From contig CALKLF010000126.1 in NCBI GenBank assembly GCA_937992175.1, positions 1 to 33,489 on the forward strand: a DNA stretch of 33,489 bases, read 5' to 3'. Below, in pieces: positions 173 through 33,489 of this stretch (positions are counted from its first letter, which is position 1; every line of letters begins with the position of its first letter). The notes below the pieces were generated by a model. The model saw nothing but the letters and a program-made list of their open reading frames with translations. It was not told where the DNA came from and did no database searches. The stretch comes from an uncultured Fimbriimonadales bacterium (lineage in GTDB: Bacteria; Armatimonadota; Fimbriimonadia; Fimbriimonadales; GBS-DC). The translations under genes were made by a program, and so were the position numbers.

Positions 173-189
173 GTCGGCGTCCCGCCGAC
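173..189. repeat. Short hairpin repeat with a GCGtccCGC core
   Basis: Arms GTCGGCG and CGCCGAC (7 bp) enclose the loop TCC. The core matches the hairpin at 3294-3318 (loop TCC) and resembles the one at 21177-21197 (loop TGC), while the outer arm bases differ. It lies in the leader region of the first gene. The rest of 190-285 shows nothing recognisable. Confidence 0.5.
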
Positions 190-2235: not shown

Positions 2236-3588
2236 TTACCTGAAAAACTCGAACTCCTCAATCGCCCGCTTGATGTGCTGCAGGAAGCGCCCCGCGTACA
2301 TCCCATCGATTAATCGATGGTCGTAGCTCAGACAAAGAGTCATCATCGGGCGGATGGCGATCATATCGTTGATGACTATAGGCTGTTTGACAATCGCGTA
2401 GGTTCCCAGAATAGCCGTTTGGGGATGGTTGATGATGGGCGTGCCAATCAGCGCGCCGTAGCTGCCAGGGTTGGTCAGCGTGAAGGTTGCGCCCTGCACC
2501 TCGGCGACGCCGATGGTCTTGTTGCGGGCGCGGGTCGCGATGTCTTCCAGCTCGCGGGCAATATCAACAAGCGATTTTTTGTGCGCGTCGCGGATCACGG
2601 GCACAATCAAGCCCTCCTCGCCCTTCGCGCCGAGCGCGACCGCCACCCCCATATGCACATAGTGGCGCACGATAATCTGGTCGTCCTGCAGTGTGGCGTT
2701 CATTATCGGGAACTCCCGCAGGGCGTCGGTGCAGGCTTTCACAAAGAAGGGGGTATAGGTCAAACGCACGCCGTACTGCTGCTGGAACGAGTCTTTGTTG
2801 CGCTCGCGGAACTCCACCAGACGCGACACATCGACCTGGATGACGGTGGTGACATGCACAGCGGTCTGGTAGCTTTTGGTAAGGTGTTCGGCGATGACCT
2901 TGCGCATGCCGACCAGCGGGATGATTTCCTCGCCTTCGCGGGGTTGCACGGGGGCGGCGGCGGGTTGGGGCGCGGGTGCAGGCGCTGGCGCAGGCGCAGG
3001 TTGCGGCGCGGCGGCGCGGCGTTGCAGGTAGGCCTCGATGTCTTTGCGCGTCACGCGCCCCCCTGTACCCGTGCCGGGAATGGTCTGCAGCTCCTCGATG
3101 CTGATGCCGTGTTCCTGCGCAATCTTGCTCACGACAGGCGAGATGAAGGGGCGTCCTGTGCCCGTGCGCGTCTGCCCATCGCGTCGCGGGGTGGGCGGGG
3201 GCGCAGGTTCCGCGGGTGGGGCGACGGTCGCTGGCTCTTCGCCGCCGCCATAGAAGCCGACGGAGGTGACGGGGGGTGGGGTGGAGATGGGCGTCGCTTG
3301 AGCGTCCCGCTCAAGCGACACGGGCGAGACGCCCGTGCTACGGGCTTCGGCTTCGGAAGCAATCAGGGCGAGTTCCTGCCCCACCAGAACGGTCGCGCCT
3401 TCAGCCGCCAGAATCTGCTGCAACACGCCCGATGCAGGCGCGGGCAACTCGGTGTTCACCTTGTCGGTCATAATCTCGACAATCGGTTCGTCCTCTTTGA
3501 CCGAGTCGCCCTCCTGCTTCAGCCAGCGGACAATCGTGCCTTCCACAATGCTCTCGCCCAGTTCGGGCATAATCACCGCAACCGCCAT
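2236..3588 (-). CDS. 2-oxoacid dehydrogenase E2 (dihydrolipoamide acyltransferase)
   Basis: 450-residue E2 core enzyme. It transfers the acyl group from lipoyl-lysine to CoA in a pyruvate or branched-chain 2-oxoacid dehydrogenase complex. Domains in order: a lipoyl domain (1-78) with lipoylation Lys43 in MTDKVN; a linker; an E1/E3-binding domain (about 148-190, FISPVVSKIAQEHGISIEEL); a long Ala-Pro linker (about 192-218); and the acyltransferase domain (about 222-450) ending with the catalytic SYDHRLIDG motif. It is the last gene of the E1alpha-E1beta-E2 operon and starts 12 nt after the E1beta stop, behind a GGGAGA ribosome-binding site. Linker residues of about 82-102 (STGVSPVSLERDAQATP) are encoded by an absorbed hairpin repeat. 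Substrate preference cannot be read from the sequence. Confidence 0.95.
   Translation of the reverse strand: MAVAVIMPELGESIVEGTIVRWLKQEGDSVKEDEPIVEIMTDKVNTELPAPASGVLQQILAAEGATVLVGQELALIASEAEARSTGVSPVSLERDAQATPISTPPPVTSVGFYGGGEEPATVAPPAEPAPPPTPRRDGQTRTGTGRPFISPVVSKIAQEHGISIEELQTIPGTGTGGRVTRKDIEAYLQRRAAAPQPAPAPAPAPAPQPAAAPVQPREGEEIIPLVGMRKVIAEHLTKSYQTAVHVTTVIQVDVSRLVEFRERNKDSFQQQYGVRLTYTPFFVKACTDALREFPIMNATLQDDQIIVRHYVHMGVAVALGAKGEEGLIVPVIRDAHKKSLVDIARELEDIATRARNKTIGVAEVQGATFTLTNPGSYGALIGTPIINHPQTAILGTYAIVKQPIVINDMIAIRPMMTLCLSYDHRLIDGMYAGRFLQHIKRAIEEFEFFR
3294..3337. repeat. Tandem hairpin repeat inside the E2 coding sequence
   Basis: Two perfect hairpins abut. 3294-3318 has arms TCGCTTGAGCG / CGCTCAAGCGA and loop TCC. 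3319-3337 has arms CACGGGCG / CGCCCGTG and loop AGA. They translate on the minus strand to TGVSPVSLERDAQAT, a peptide typical of bacterial intergenic repeats that have entered genes. The insertion keeps the frame and lies in the flexible linker after the lipoyl domain. Confidence 0.85.
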
Positions 3589-3600
3589 AATCTGTCTCCC

Positions 3601-4587
3601 TCAGTACGCCACCAGCTCTCGCGCGGCGAACACGATGTCGTCCACGCTGGGCAGTACGAACTTCTCCAGCGGCTCGGCAAAGGGCACGAAGGCGTCCTTT
3701 GCCGCGACTCGCATAATCGGCGCATCGAGCCACTCGAACGCCTGTTCCGTGATGCGCGCCGAGATTTCCGCGCCCACGCCGCCCGTCTTCGGCGCTTCGT
3801 ACACAATTAATACCTTGCTCGTCTTGCGCACCGACTGCAGAATCGTCTTCATGTCGAGCGGCTTGATGGTGCGCAGGTCGATGACCTCTAACGAGATGCC
3901 CTCTTTTTCGAGGTGTTGCGCCGCTTCGAGGACGAAATGCACCATCGCGCCATAGGTGACCACCGTGATGTCTTCGCCGTAGCGTCGGACGCGCGCGCTG
4001 CCGAGTTTGACGATGTAGTCCTCGTGCGCTTCGGGGATAGGTCCCTTGATGCGCCGGTAGAGATGCTTATGTTCGTAGAACACGACGGGGTTGTTGTCGC
4101 GAATGGCGGCTTTCATCAGTCCGTAGGCGTCGTCGGGGAAGGCGGGCTGCACGACCTTTAAGCCGGGCGTATGGAAGAACCACGCCTCGAACTGCTGGCT
4201 GTGATACAGGCTGCCGCCGATATAGCCGCCCGACGGTCCGCGCACCACGATAGGAATCGGCGTCTTACCCCCTGAGCGGTACAGGTAAGTGCCAGCGACA
4301 TTCACGACCTGATCGAAGCCGTAGGAGATGAAATCCATGAACTGCATTTCGGCGACGCCGCGTTTGCCTGCCGCCGCCGCGCCCACGCAGACCGCGATAA
4401 TCGCTGTCTCGGAGATGGGCGAGTCCACCACGCGGTCGGGCCCGAAGTGTTCATAGAAACCTTCCGTCACGCCGAACGCGCCGCCCATCCGCCCGATGTC
4501 TTCGCCAATCAGGAACACATTCGGGTCGCGCTCCATCTCTTCCCCGCGCGCGAGCCGAATCGCCTCCAGGAAAGTGACCTCTCTCAT
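3601..4587 (-). CDS. 2-oxoacid dehydrogenase E1 component, beta subunit
   Basis: 328-residue transketolase-like beta subunit that pairs with E1alpha to decarboxylate a 2-oxoacid with thiamine diphosphate. Family landmarks are the N-terminus MREVTFLEAIRLARGEEMERD, the GEDIGRMGGAFGVTEG segment that carries the cofactor-contacting Glu, FMDFISYGFDQVVNVAGTY, and GPSGGYIGGSLYHSQ. The C-terminal transketolase domain has RTIKPLDMKTILQSVRKTSK and YEAPKTGGVGAEISA. Its ATG overlaps the E1alpha stop by 4 nt, indicating coupled translation. Length is normal for the family (about 325-330). The beta subunit does not reveal whether pyruvate, acetoin or branched-chain acids are used. Confidence 0.95.
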   Translation of the reverse strand: MREVTFLEAIRLARGEEMERDPNVFLIGEDIGRMGGAFGVTEGFYEHFGPDRVVDSPISETAIIAVCVGAAAAGKRGVAEMQFMDFISYGFDQVVNVAGTYLYRSGGKTPIPIVVRGPSGGYIGGSLYHSQQFEAWFFHTPGLKVVQPAFPDDAYGLMKAAIRDNNPVVFYEHKHLYRRIKGPIPEAHEDYIVKLGSARVRRYGEDITVVTYGAMVHFVLEAAQHLEKEGISLEVIDLRTIKPLDMKTILQSVRKTSKVLIVYEAPKTGGVGAEISARITEQAFEWLDAPIMRVAAKDAFVPFAEPLEKFVLPSVDDIVFAARELVAY

Positions 4588-5633
4588 AGCGACACCCCCG
4601 CGCTCTCGTCGTAGATGTCTTCCAGCGCCGTATGCGGCTCAGGGTCAGGGCTGCTGATAGCGTACACAATCGCACGCTCGATCTGCTCTTTAATGTCCAG
4701 AGGCGGTTCGGGCAGCTCCGCTTCAGTGAATTGCCCCGTGCTGAGCAGATACTGGCGGTAGCGCACGAGCGGGTCGCGCTTCTCCCACAACTCGATCTCT
4801 TCTACGGGGCGGTACTTGCGGGCGCGGGTCTCGTCGTGATCTGCGTGCCCCTGCAGGCGGTAGGTCACGCACTCGATAATCACGGGCCCGTTGCCCGCGC
4901 GCGCGTGGTCCAACGCCTCGCACATCGTGTCGTACACCGCGTTGAAATCGTTGCCGTCGATGCTGTAGCCCGGAATACCGTAGCCTAATGCACGCTCGGC
5001 GACGGTCTTGGTGGGCACTTCCAGCTCAACAGGCGTGGAGTAGGCGTACTGGTTATTCTCCACCACCACAATCAGAGGTAGTTTATGCACGGCGGCGAAA
5101 TTCAGTCCTTCGTGGAACGGTCCCGTGGCGGTTGCGCCCTCGCCCGTGTAGGCGACCAGCACGCGATCGCGCCTGCCGTCCAGTCGCTGCGCCCACAGCA
5201 CGCCGCACGCCACCGCAATCGTGGAGCCGAGCATGCTTGTGGAATGCACAATCCCCAGATTCATATCGCCCATATGGCTCCACGAGTCTTTGCCGCGCGT
5301 AGGGGCTTCCGCCTTGCCCCACACCTGGCACATCACCTGCTCGACGGTCATCCCGCGAAACACGAACACGGGCATATCGCGATGGATGGGCGAGACGAAA
5401 TCGTCGGGGCGCAGCGGATAGGTCGTGCCGACCATAATCGCTTCCTGCCCGCGCGAGCCGTACACATTCCCGCGCCGCAGGCGACCTTTTTTCTTCGCAT
5501 CGTACAACGCCTCATCAAACAAGCGGGCAAACCACAGCCTGCGATAAATCTCAATTAAATCGCTCTTCTCCAGTCGCTCGTGGAAGGCGACCCTCTGTTG
5601 TCCATTTTTGCGTCGCGTGCGCGTCGTACTCAA
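4584..5633 (-). CDS. 2-oxoacid dehydrogenase E1 component, alpha subunit
   Basis: 349-residue thiamine-diphosphate-binding alpha subunit and first gene of the operon. The cofactor/Mg motif is GEGATATGPFHEGLNFAAVH ending in NNQYAYST, i.e. GEG rather than GDG, as also occurs in branched-chain E1alpha proteins. The phosphorylation-loop-like region YRLQGHADHDETRARKYR and an early IEIYRRLWFARLFDEALYDA helix are also typical. The start is TTG at 5633, chosen because GGAGG lies 7 nt upstream and no ATG precedes the homology. A GGGTATAAT promoter lies just upstream. No E3 (lipoamide dehydrogenase) gene follows E2 within the window, so E3 must be encoded elsewhere. Confidence 0.93.
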   Translation of the reverse strand: MSTTRTRRKNGQQRVAFHERLEKSDLIEIYRRLWFARLFDEALYDAKKKGRLRRGNVYGSRGQEAIMVGTTYPLRPDDFVSPIHRDMPVFVFRGMTVEQVMCQVWGKAEAPTRGKDSWSHMGDMNLGIVHSTSMLGSTIAVACGVLWAQRLDGRRDRVLVAYTGEGATATGPFHEGLNFAAVHKLPLIVVVENNQYAYSTPVELEVPTKTVAERALGYGIPGYSIDGNDFNAVYDTMCEALDHARAGNGPVIIECVTYRLQGHADHDETRARKYRPVEEIELWEKRDPLVRYRQYLLSTGQFTEAELPEPPLDIKEQIERAIVYAISSPDPEPHTALEDIYDESAGVSL

Positions 5634-15043: not shown

Positions 15044-15184
15044 GTAAGTCCTTCCTGCGAAAAAGCGATGGAAACGCACAGGGAAGCGGCTGAGATTCCT
15101 CGCTTCGCTCGGAATGACAATCGTTGTCATTCCGAGCGAAGCGAGGAATCTCAAGCGGTATTATTTTCCGCAGGAAGGACTTAC
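15044..15184. repeat. Nested inverted-repeat element (SEARNL/HSERSEES type)
   Basis: An inner 29-bp perfect inverted repeat (15092-15120 with 15124-15152, centre TCG) is nested within an outer 16-bp perfect inverted repeat GTAAGTCCTTCCTGCG / CGCAGGAAGGACTTAC (15044-15059 with 15169-15184). The spacers between inner and outer arms are 32 and 16 nt, so the two sides are not symmetric. The right half is clearly related to 84-145 in the first palindrome. It contains GGTATTAT at 15157-15164, a possible -10 for the gene downstream. Confidence 0.85.
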
Positions 15185-18872: not shown

Positions 18873-18907
18873 GCCCAAGTTGCGACCTATAGACTTTGAG
18901 CAGGCGA

Positions 18908-18984
18908 GATTCCTCGCTGCGCTCGGAATGACAGACTGGTTGCTTGCGTGAATCCACTGTTGTTCCGAGCGCAGCGAGGAATCC
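18908..18984. repeat. SEARNL-type inverted repeat
   Basis: GATTCCTCGCTGCGCTCGGA (from 18908) is matched as its reverse complement near 18964-18984 (21-bp arms, about 35-nt spacer). It lies between the divergently placed ends of the glycosidase promoter and the lipoprotein 3' end. Confidence 0.8.
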
Positions 18985-19000
18985 GAATCAGTGGGACGGG

Positions 19001-19633: not shown

Positions 19634-19706
19634 CTATGCTTGGACAGGAATGTCCAAGCCCTATAGACATCCCCTGTGCTTGGACAGGAATGTCCAAGCT
19701 ACAGGG
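19634..19706. repeat. Two tandem hairpins with identical cores and different, compensated flanks
   Basis: Both copies (cores 19638-19659 and 19678-19699, period 40 nt) form GCTTGGACA-GGAA-TGTCCAAGC. The stem is extended in copy 1 by CTAT/ATAG and in copy 2 by CCCTGT/ACAGGG. Copy 2 lies just downstream of the asnS stop on the minus strand, so the pair may act in 3'-end formation although no U-run follows. Confidence 0.8.
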
Positions 19707-21130: not shown

Positions 21131-21203
21131 GGCGTGGCTTAGGCGCCCCGCCCACGCACGGCTCTCTACAAGCGTGGCTTGGGCGTGCCGCCCAAGCGTA
21201 GCT
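21131..21203. repeat. Two tandem imperfect hairpin repeats
   Basis: Unit 2 holds the perfect hairpin GCTTGGGCG-TGC-CGCCCAAGC (21177-21197). Unit 1 (GCGTGG ... CCACGC, 21132-21157) is a diverged version, and each is followed by a related GGCTCT/AGCTCTACA tail. It resembles the E2-embedded hairpin at 3294-3318. It fills the gap between the asnS promoter and the end of the permease gene. Confidence 0.7.
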
Positions 21204-33216: not shown

Positions 33217-33234
33217 TCCTGCCATCAGTGGGAA

Positions 33235-33309
33235 GATTCCTCGCCCCACTTGAAATGACAGGCAGTTCCTCGAACAGTCCTTGTTGTTCCGAGTGGAGCG
33301 AGGGGTCTC
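33235..33309. repeat. Decayed SEARNL-type inverted repeat
   Basis: GATTCCTCGCCCC ... AATGACA is faced by TTGTTCCGAGTGGAGCGAGG; arms are recognisable but with several mismatches. It is followed by the 24-nt repeat and a fresh copy of the same family. The interval 33178-33489 contains no supported gene. Confidence 0.6.
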
Positions 33310-33348
33310 TTAGGTGCTCTAGGGACACTTGCATACTTGAGGCGCTTT

Positions 33349-33372
33349 AGTCCCTCAAAGGTGAAATTGTCC
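33349..33372 (+). repeat. 24-nt direct repeat copy
   Basis: Exact match to 16780-16803 (begins AGTCCCTCAAAGG, ends TTGTCC). It lies about 16.5 kb away from the first copy and, like it, in a repeat-rich spacer. Confidence 0.75.
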
Positions 33373-33379
33373 CGAAATC

Positions 33380-33455
33380 AGATTCCTCGCTCCGCTCGGA
33401 ATGACAGAACCTCTTTGCTCGCGAAGCTTGTCATTCCGAGCGGAGCGAGGAATCT
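33380..33455. repeat. SEARNL-type inverted repeat, intact
   Basis: 27-bp perfect arms (33380-33406 and 33429-33455; AGATTCCTCGCTCCGCTCGG on the left) flank a 22-nt spacer. The arm bases CTCCG differ from CTTCG and CTGCG in other copies, with the matching change on the opposite arm. Confidence 0.85.
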
Positions 33456-33489
33456 CAACGCTGCATTTTCAGGATGCCTTAACATTTGA

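Follow-up and report, generated by a model that had tools for sequence, protein, structure and literature searches.

An in-frame GTAG-tagged REPIN in the E2 linker of a Fimbriimonadales bacterium, with signs of subtype turnover at the site

How does a perfect double hairpin come to lie inside the reading frame of a conserved metabolic gene? The question is raised by an E2 (2-oxoacid dehydrogenase acyltransferase) gene in the 2.8-Mb draft genome (about 94% complete; coded G000) of a hot-spring bacterium. The window analyzed here is a 33,489-nucleotide stretch of this genome, and the features discussed are listed in Table 1. The product has lipoyl (residues 5 to 76), E3_binding (residues 147 to 185), and catalytic (residues 219 to 447) domains and, judged by these matches, is a bona fide E2; the open reading frames upstream of it at 4584-5633 and 3601-4587, both on the minus strand, are taken by position only as E1 alpha and E1 beta. 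A reading of the sequence alone had described the hairpins and proposed that they are a mobile element inserted at a tolerant site in the linker. The explanation that we favor, with a probability of roughly 0.86, is that the doublet is a GTAG REPIN of the kind handled by RAYTs, from a family that spread to spacers and linkers, and that the E2 copy arose when a tolerated site was occupied anew or converted.

The two abutting perfect hairpins are real, as is their in-frame position between the lipoyl and E3-binding domains: they encode residues 83 to 99 (R83-T99), within the flexible linker. The coding strand reads ...GAA GCC GAA GCC C / GTAG CACGGGCG-TCT-CGCCCGTG-TCG-CTTGAGCG-GGA-CGCTCAAG-CGAC / GCCC..., with base 3319 common to both hairpins, and hairpin B can equally be described as 11-bp arms with a 5-nt loop. 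By chance, in first-order Markov simulations, the window would hold about 3 hairpins whose arms reach 8 bp (loops of 3 to 5 nt) and 0.2 whose arms reach 11 bp; the single-strand fold of the doublet has a z of -5.7 against shuffles. Hairpin A carries an unpaired GTAG tag at one end, as a REP does, while the tag of hairpin B, GTCG, is a rarer form and is base-paired with its own complement. Both stems and both loops are inside the range of GTAG REPs (about 6 to 13 bp, short loop). The terminal tag is GTAG/GTNG and not the CGTC of Rickettsia palindromic elements and CGTC REPs.

Table 1. Coordinates in the window of the E2 gene, its hairpin doublet, and related spacer hairpins
Feature	Position	Strand	Details
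Host gene E2 (2-oxoacid dehydrogenase acyltransferase)	2236..3588	-	450 aa; lipoyl, E3-binding, and catalytic domains
REPIN-like element, 49 nt: GTAG-hairpin A, then hairpin B-CGAC, tags outward	3293..3341	-	Encodes RSTGVSPVSLERDAQAT
Hairpin A: CACGGGCG-TCT-CGCCCGTG, phase AGC ACG GGC	3319..3337	-	8-bp arms, 3-nt loop
GTAG tag immediately 5' of hairpin A	3338..3341 (GTAG at 3341-3338, coding strand)	-	
Hairpin B: GTCGCTTGAGCG-GGA-CGCTCAAGCGAC, outward tag GTCG	3293..3319	-	12-bp arms, 3-nt loop
Two REP-like hairpins GCTTGGACAGGAATGTCCAAGC, TTGGACA subtype, spacer	19638..19699	.	
B-like hairpins GTGGCTTGGGCGTGCCGCCCAAGC, spacer	21132..21197	.	
GTCGGCG-subtype hairpin GTCGGCG-TCC-CGCCGAC, spacer	173..189	.	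GTAG-tagged copies of subtype elsewhere

A search for the doublet elsewhere in the source genome, a check suggested along with the original proposal, returned 72 dispersed BLASTN matches (for example, C37:8503-8556, with 85% identity and E 3.7e-10). The sister species G007 has 55 matches, with copies up to 97% identical over part of the element and 91% over most of it; in G008 and G010, among others, the family is scarce or missing. The loci retrieved from the source genome hold 64 A hairpins and 40 B hairpins. GTNG stands directly 5' of the stem in 54 of the A hairpins, 50 of which carry it on one side only (26 GTAG, 22 GTGG, and 2 GTCG), and a GTNG tag, mostly GTGG, accompanies 36 of the B hairpins. 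Where A and B are paired, the tags point outward in 20 cases (11 A+B-, 9 B+A-) versus inward in 5; the E2 doublet has the A+ B- arrangement, inverted with its tags outward, as in a REPIN. By these sequence features, the doublet is a REPIN of a dispersed GTAG-tagged REP family. The A and B cores are 8 to 35 nt apart in nearly all pairs but only 3 nt apart in E2, so the spacer of the E2 copy was probably trimmed. The spacer hairpins at 173-189 and 21177-21197, which the sequence-only reading had likened in core to the doublet, do exist and have the GGCG-NNN-CGCC core in common with it, but they are not the same doublet: since their stems differ, they belong to related subfamilies. The window contains other repeats as well. 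At the contig start, positions 1-165 form an inverted repeat whose 82-bp arms match perfectly around a 1-nt center; this repeat, possibly an assembly fold-back, includes the dispersed repeat TTGTCATTCCGAGCGAAGC, and another dispersed inverted repeat family, GAGATTCCTCGCTTCGCTCGGAATGACA, occurs at 46-115, 15085-15154, 18899-18987, and 33226-33458.

E2 is one of several genes of the source genome that carry A/B copies in frame. By Pfam match, the others encode SMC (in the hinge), MetG (in the linker preceding the tRNA-binding domain), the SAM hydroxide adenosyltransferase (SAM_HAT), an alcohol dehydrogenase, FlgH, and FliH, and there is a further, less certain copy at the N-terminus of an acyltransferase. 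A candidate copy in a phosphoesterase gene (L101) lacks a tag, and chance probably accounts for it. In SMC and SAM_HAT, comparison with relatives reveals clean inserts of about 22 and 25 amino acids, respectively; most relatives are without them, which indicates that true insertions do occur, and from this presence and absence among species the family is probably mobile. Among the copies that lie in host frames, 20 of 22 A hairpins and all 13 B hairpins have the same reading phase, and almost all of them the same orientation; the candidates came from frames of at least 200 amino acids on both strands, hosts were retained on a Pfam match, and several copies in one gene do not count as independent. 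This dominant phase reads S/G-T-G-V-x-P ... L-E-R-D-A-Q-A-T, although each hairpin, on inspection, could be read without a stop in at least four of its six frames. The bias could be due to peptide selection or to mechanism. In the FliH (L118 937-2169) and FlgH (L098 864-2540) frames, some 200 N-terminal residues are largely translated palindromic repeats, which in FlgH come after an apparent lipoprotein signal peptide.

Had the doublet entered E2 recently and simply, close relatives would be expected to have a gap at about residues 82 to 102, as was predicted from the sequence alone. There is none. Compared with that of the source E2, the linker is longer by one residue in the nearest relative, G007 (90% identical), shorter by one in G004 and G006, shorter by five in G003, and shorter by only 7 to 10 in the REP-free relatives G008 to G011. 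These lengths point to replacement, trimming, or re-occupation rather than a simple recent insertion. In the G007 linker, AGCGTTGGCG-CCCCGCCGACG agrees at 20 of 22 columns, with a mismatch and a gap at the other two, with the GTAG-tagged GTCGGCG subtype, copies of which are scattered through the genus. This relic has lost its tag and its perfect stem, and it starts at linker base 27, which is the base of the AGC of hairpin A. Its p value from codon shuffles is about 0.001, in a partly post hoc test (the similarity was noticed first) of 21 linkers, including a few duplicates, against a library of four subtypes. The G003 linker possibly holds a decayed REP too: the similarity of GCGCGGATACTCCTGCCCGCGC is suggestive (p 0.048); it begins one base further on, and GGC is the codon that lines up with AGC. 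The E2 linkers of all other relatives tested, including G004, G006, G008, and G010, gave no REP trace at p 0.05. Because the G007 linker holds a decayed REP of another subtype from the same start nucleotide, the E2 site appears either to have been reused or to be old with turnover.

Other genes have similar histories. The MetG site is occupied by A/B in G000 and by the GGACA subtype in G003, whereas G004 and G006 have decayed forms there; these four start from one and the same base, and MetG of G007 has two copies of the GTCGGCG subtype. At the SAM_HAT site (L134, L135, L138, and L143), G000 and G007 have A/B, and G009 and G011 have the GGACA subtype (an STDIPVRA-type REP); the SAM_HAT frame of G011 ends within repeats. 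The E2/MetG tree has moderate supports (0.78 to 0.89 in the relevant part) with the REP-free G009 and G011 nested within, so both a single ancestral insertion followed by loss and several insertions are possible.

What could have moved these elements? A pair of inverted GTAG-type REPs with outward tags would be non-autonomous mobile DNA of the kind served by a single-strand HUH/Y1 transposase (RAYT). Such a gene lies next to the same dimers in G007, where an open frame of 494 aa leads from a TetR-type regulator across an A/B REPIN (RSTGVPPVQAAPPALERDAQAT) into a RAYT and on through two more REPINs. The three A/B dimers, on both sides of the RAYT, are in frame and in the same phase and encode STGVPPV..LERDAQAT. 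The HUH motif is intact (NHVH), and Pfam Y1_Tnp matches above the Pfam cut-off; against the RAYT model NF047646 the score is 69.3 bits, under the model cut-off of 80. Downstream of the left REPIN, no ATG, GTG, or TTG precedes the conserved N-terminus of the RAYT; one GTG lies inside hairpin A. A RAYT with flanking doublets is present in the sister species, but the source genome, at about 94% completeness, has no RAYT flanked by the E2 doublet, and neither of its two Y1 genes is accompanied by A/B REPs. The only one of its genes that is RAYT-like and has the HUH motif intact (C26), in carB, is flanked by palindromes of another type and was rejected as the cognate. The Y1 gene on C6 (L061 1420-2145), whose IS200-like Y1 domain has QVH for HUH, is fused to sigma-70 region 4, and has no flanking A/B hairpins, was rejected as well. 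Y1 frames of 236 to 325 amino acids, similar in length to L061, are found in all genus members searched, which suggests that the Y1/sigma-70 protein is domesticated. A RAYT such as that of G007 may mobilize the REPINs in trans.

We read the E2 doublet as follows. The family has spread through spacers and the flexible linkers of conserved genes, in the latter almost exclusively in one orientation and phase, in a lineage that relatives named in GTDB contigs place in the Armatimonadota (Fimbriimonadales). The E2 linker position has held a GTAG REP of another subtype in at least one, and possibly two, sister species. Given that this other REP starts from the same nucleotide, the present copy most likely re-occupied, or was converted at, a tolerated site, leaving the linker near its old length, and it is probably tolerated there without function. 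Of the original proposal, the absorbed mobile element at a tolerant linker survives, with the repeated doublet, the sister RAYT, and the clean inserts elsewhere on its side; a simple recent insertion into an empty E2 linker is not supported.

The last step might instead have been the remodeling of a palindrome already in the linker, by template switching or recombination with other REPs, so that the subtype changed in place. We consider this possible but doubtful as the whole account. Different subtypes do start from the same nucleotide in sister species at both E2 and MetG, and the net change in linker length is small at both; however, about 22 to 25 amino acids were truly gained in SMC and SAM_HAT, and the stretches common to the subtypes are very short for homologous exchange. 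In-place conversion is also compatible with an original insertion, and it overlaps our favored explanation without replacing it. That the element is retained for a function seems improbable: the hairpins might tune or slow translation or shield the E1-E2 transcript, or else the peptide might be a useful spacer. Both E2 hairpins keep perfect pairing despite the decay of the sister copy, the doublet folds stably, and a REP seemingly sat at this site in more than one species. Yet perfect arms also fit a recent arrival, the same hairpins occur in unrelated genes and spacers, the G007 relic has neither tag nor perfect stem, and the E2 linkers of G008, G009, G010, and G011 are without a significant REP trace. 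Chance palindromes in a GC-rich, low-complexity linker, an idea to which the simple composition and variable length of E2 linkers lend some appeal, are already refuted by the recurrence in the genome of the doublet's sequence, and not of its pairing alone, in addition to the low expectation for arms of this length.

Rickettsia palindromic elements (RPE) are palindromic repeats absorbed in frame into many conserved genes. In-frame absorption is common to them and to the E2-doublet family, but the latter is of the GTAG class and has a RAYT in a sister species, whereas RPE-4 and RPE-6 have been classed as CGTC (PMC3733652). GTAG REPs have a GTAG or GTGG tag, a 6- to 13-bp stem, a loop of mostly 2 to 3 nt, head-to-head dimers, and high copy number; some dimers or groups lie inside conserved genes and code for 20 to 30 amino acids, and in recB, two Xanthomonas species differ in the REP that occupies roughly one site (Di Nocera et al. 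2013, PMC3733652). The E2-doublet family resembles them in tag, stem and loop, dimer arrangement, copy number, and intragenic copies, and REPs in frame within genes, likely harmless in linkers, have been discussed (PMC3733652; PMC6006769). The E2 copy is thus an intragenic GTAG REPIN of a kind already published. It differs from the published REPs in coming from the Armatimonadota, which are absent from PMC3733652, in having one dominant orientation and phase, and in the occupation of one nucleotide position by different subtypes in several congeners. What looks new here is this turnover of subtypes at the same nucleotide, together with the RAYT units embedded in host genes. In-frame REPs are usually treated as curiosities. 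Because both the family and its transposase are likewise read through in other conserved genes, this lineage offers a natural test bed for genes absorbing mobile DNA: orthologous genes of one genus hold a full series that includes empty linkers, copies both fresh and decayed, single nucleotide positions with different subtypes, and an in-frame transposase unit. With such a series, the rate at which palindromes enter genes, the frames and sites that tolerate them, and whether a transposase gains from host translation become testable.

RAYT, or TnpA-REP, units consist of an HUH/Y1 transposase gene between two inverted REPs, and RAYTs of subclass 2.4 have in-frame REPs inside their own gene (Nunvar et al. 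2010, PMC2817692; PMC6006769). The RAYTs found here match in their inverted flanking REPs and their NHVH and WQ motifs but differ in that the unit itself is in frame with a host gene (TetR, carB, or GH38), either inside it or at its end. In G039, from the same order but another family, one REP-RAYT-REP unit lies in carB between CPSase_L_D2 and CPSase_L_D3 (C27, L095 1813-2474), flanked by inverted GTGG-tagged hairpins with outward tags, and another whole unit is in frame within a GH38-family gene (C6, L094 3350-4032). Both are on long contigs, and in both a start codon may lie near the left REP. In the source genome, the C-terminal half of carB shares one frame with the C26 RAYT and its palindromes (L093 1928-4891); the contig stops in the left repeats of the RAYT and so lacks the upstream junction. 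Judging by these cases, residence in frame looks like a habit of this element group. Whole in-frame REP-RAYT-REP units in host genes look to be new; the open-access literature yielded nothing relevant on RAYTs embedded in host genes or on REPs in Armatimonadetes, and unexpectedly long proteins were discarded as gene fusions or annotation errors in PMC6006769. We offer tentatively, and with more doubt than belief, that RAYTs of this order reside in host genes as in-frame units that use the host start codon and are read through, and that REPs and REPINs such as that of E2 are shaped for translation in one phase. The carriage would be like that of inteins, although the RAYT units have no known splicing. 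If true, the element exploits conserved genes instead of avoiding them. The carB frame of the source genome has two further in-frame palindromic inserts (LTPIPSPTAWERG... and LTPSPSLTAWERG...), the first of which is missing in most relatives; G004 has a different REP-like peptide there.
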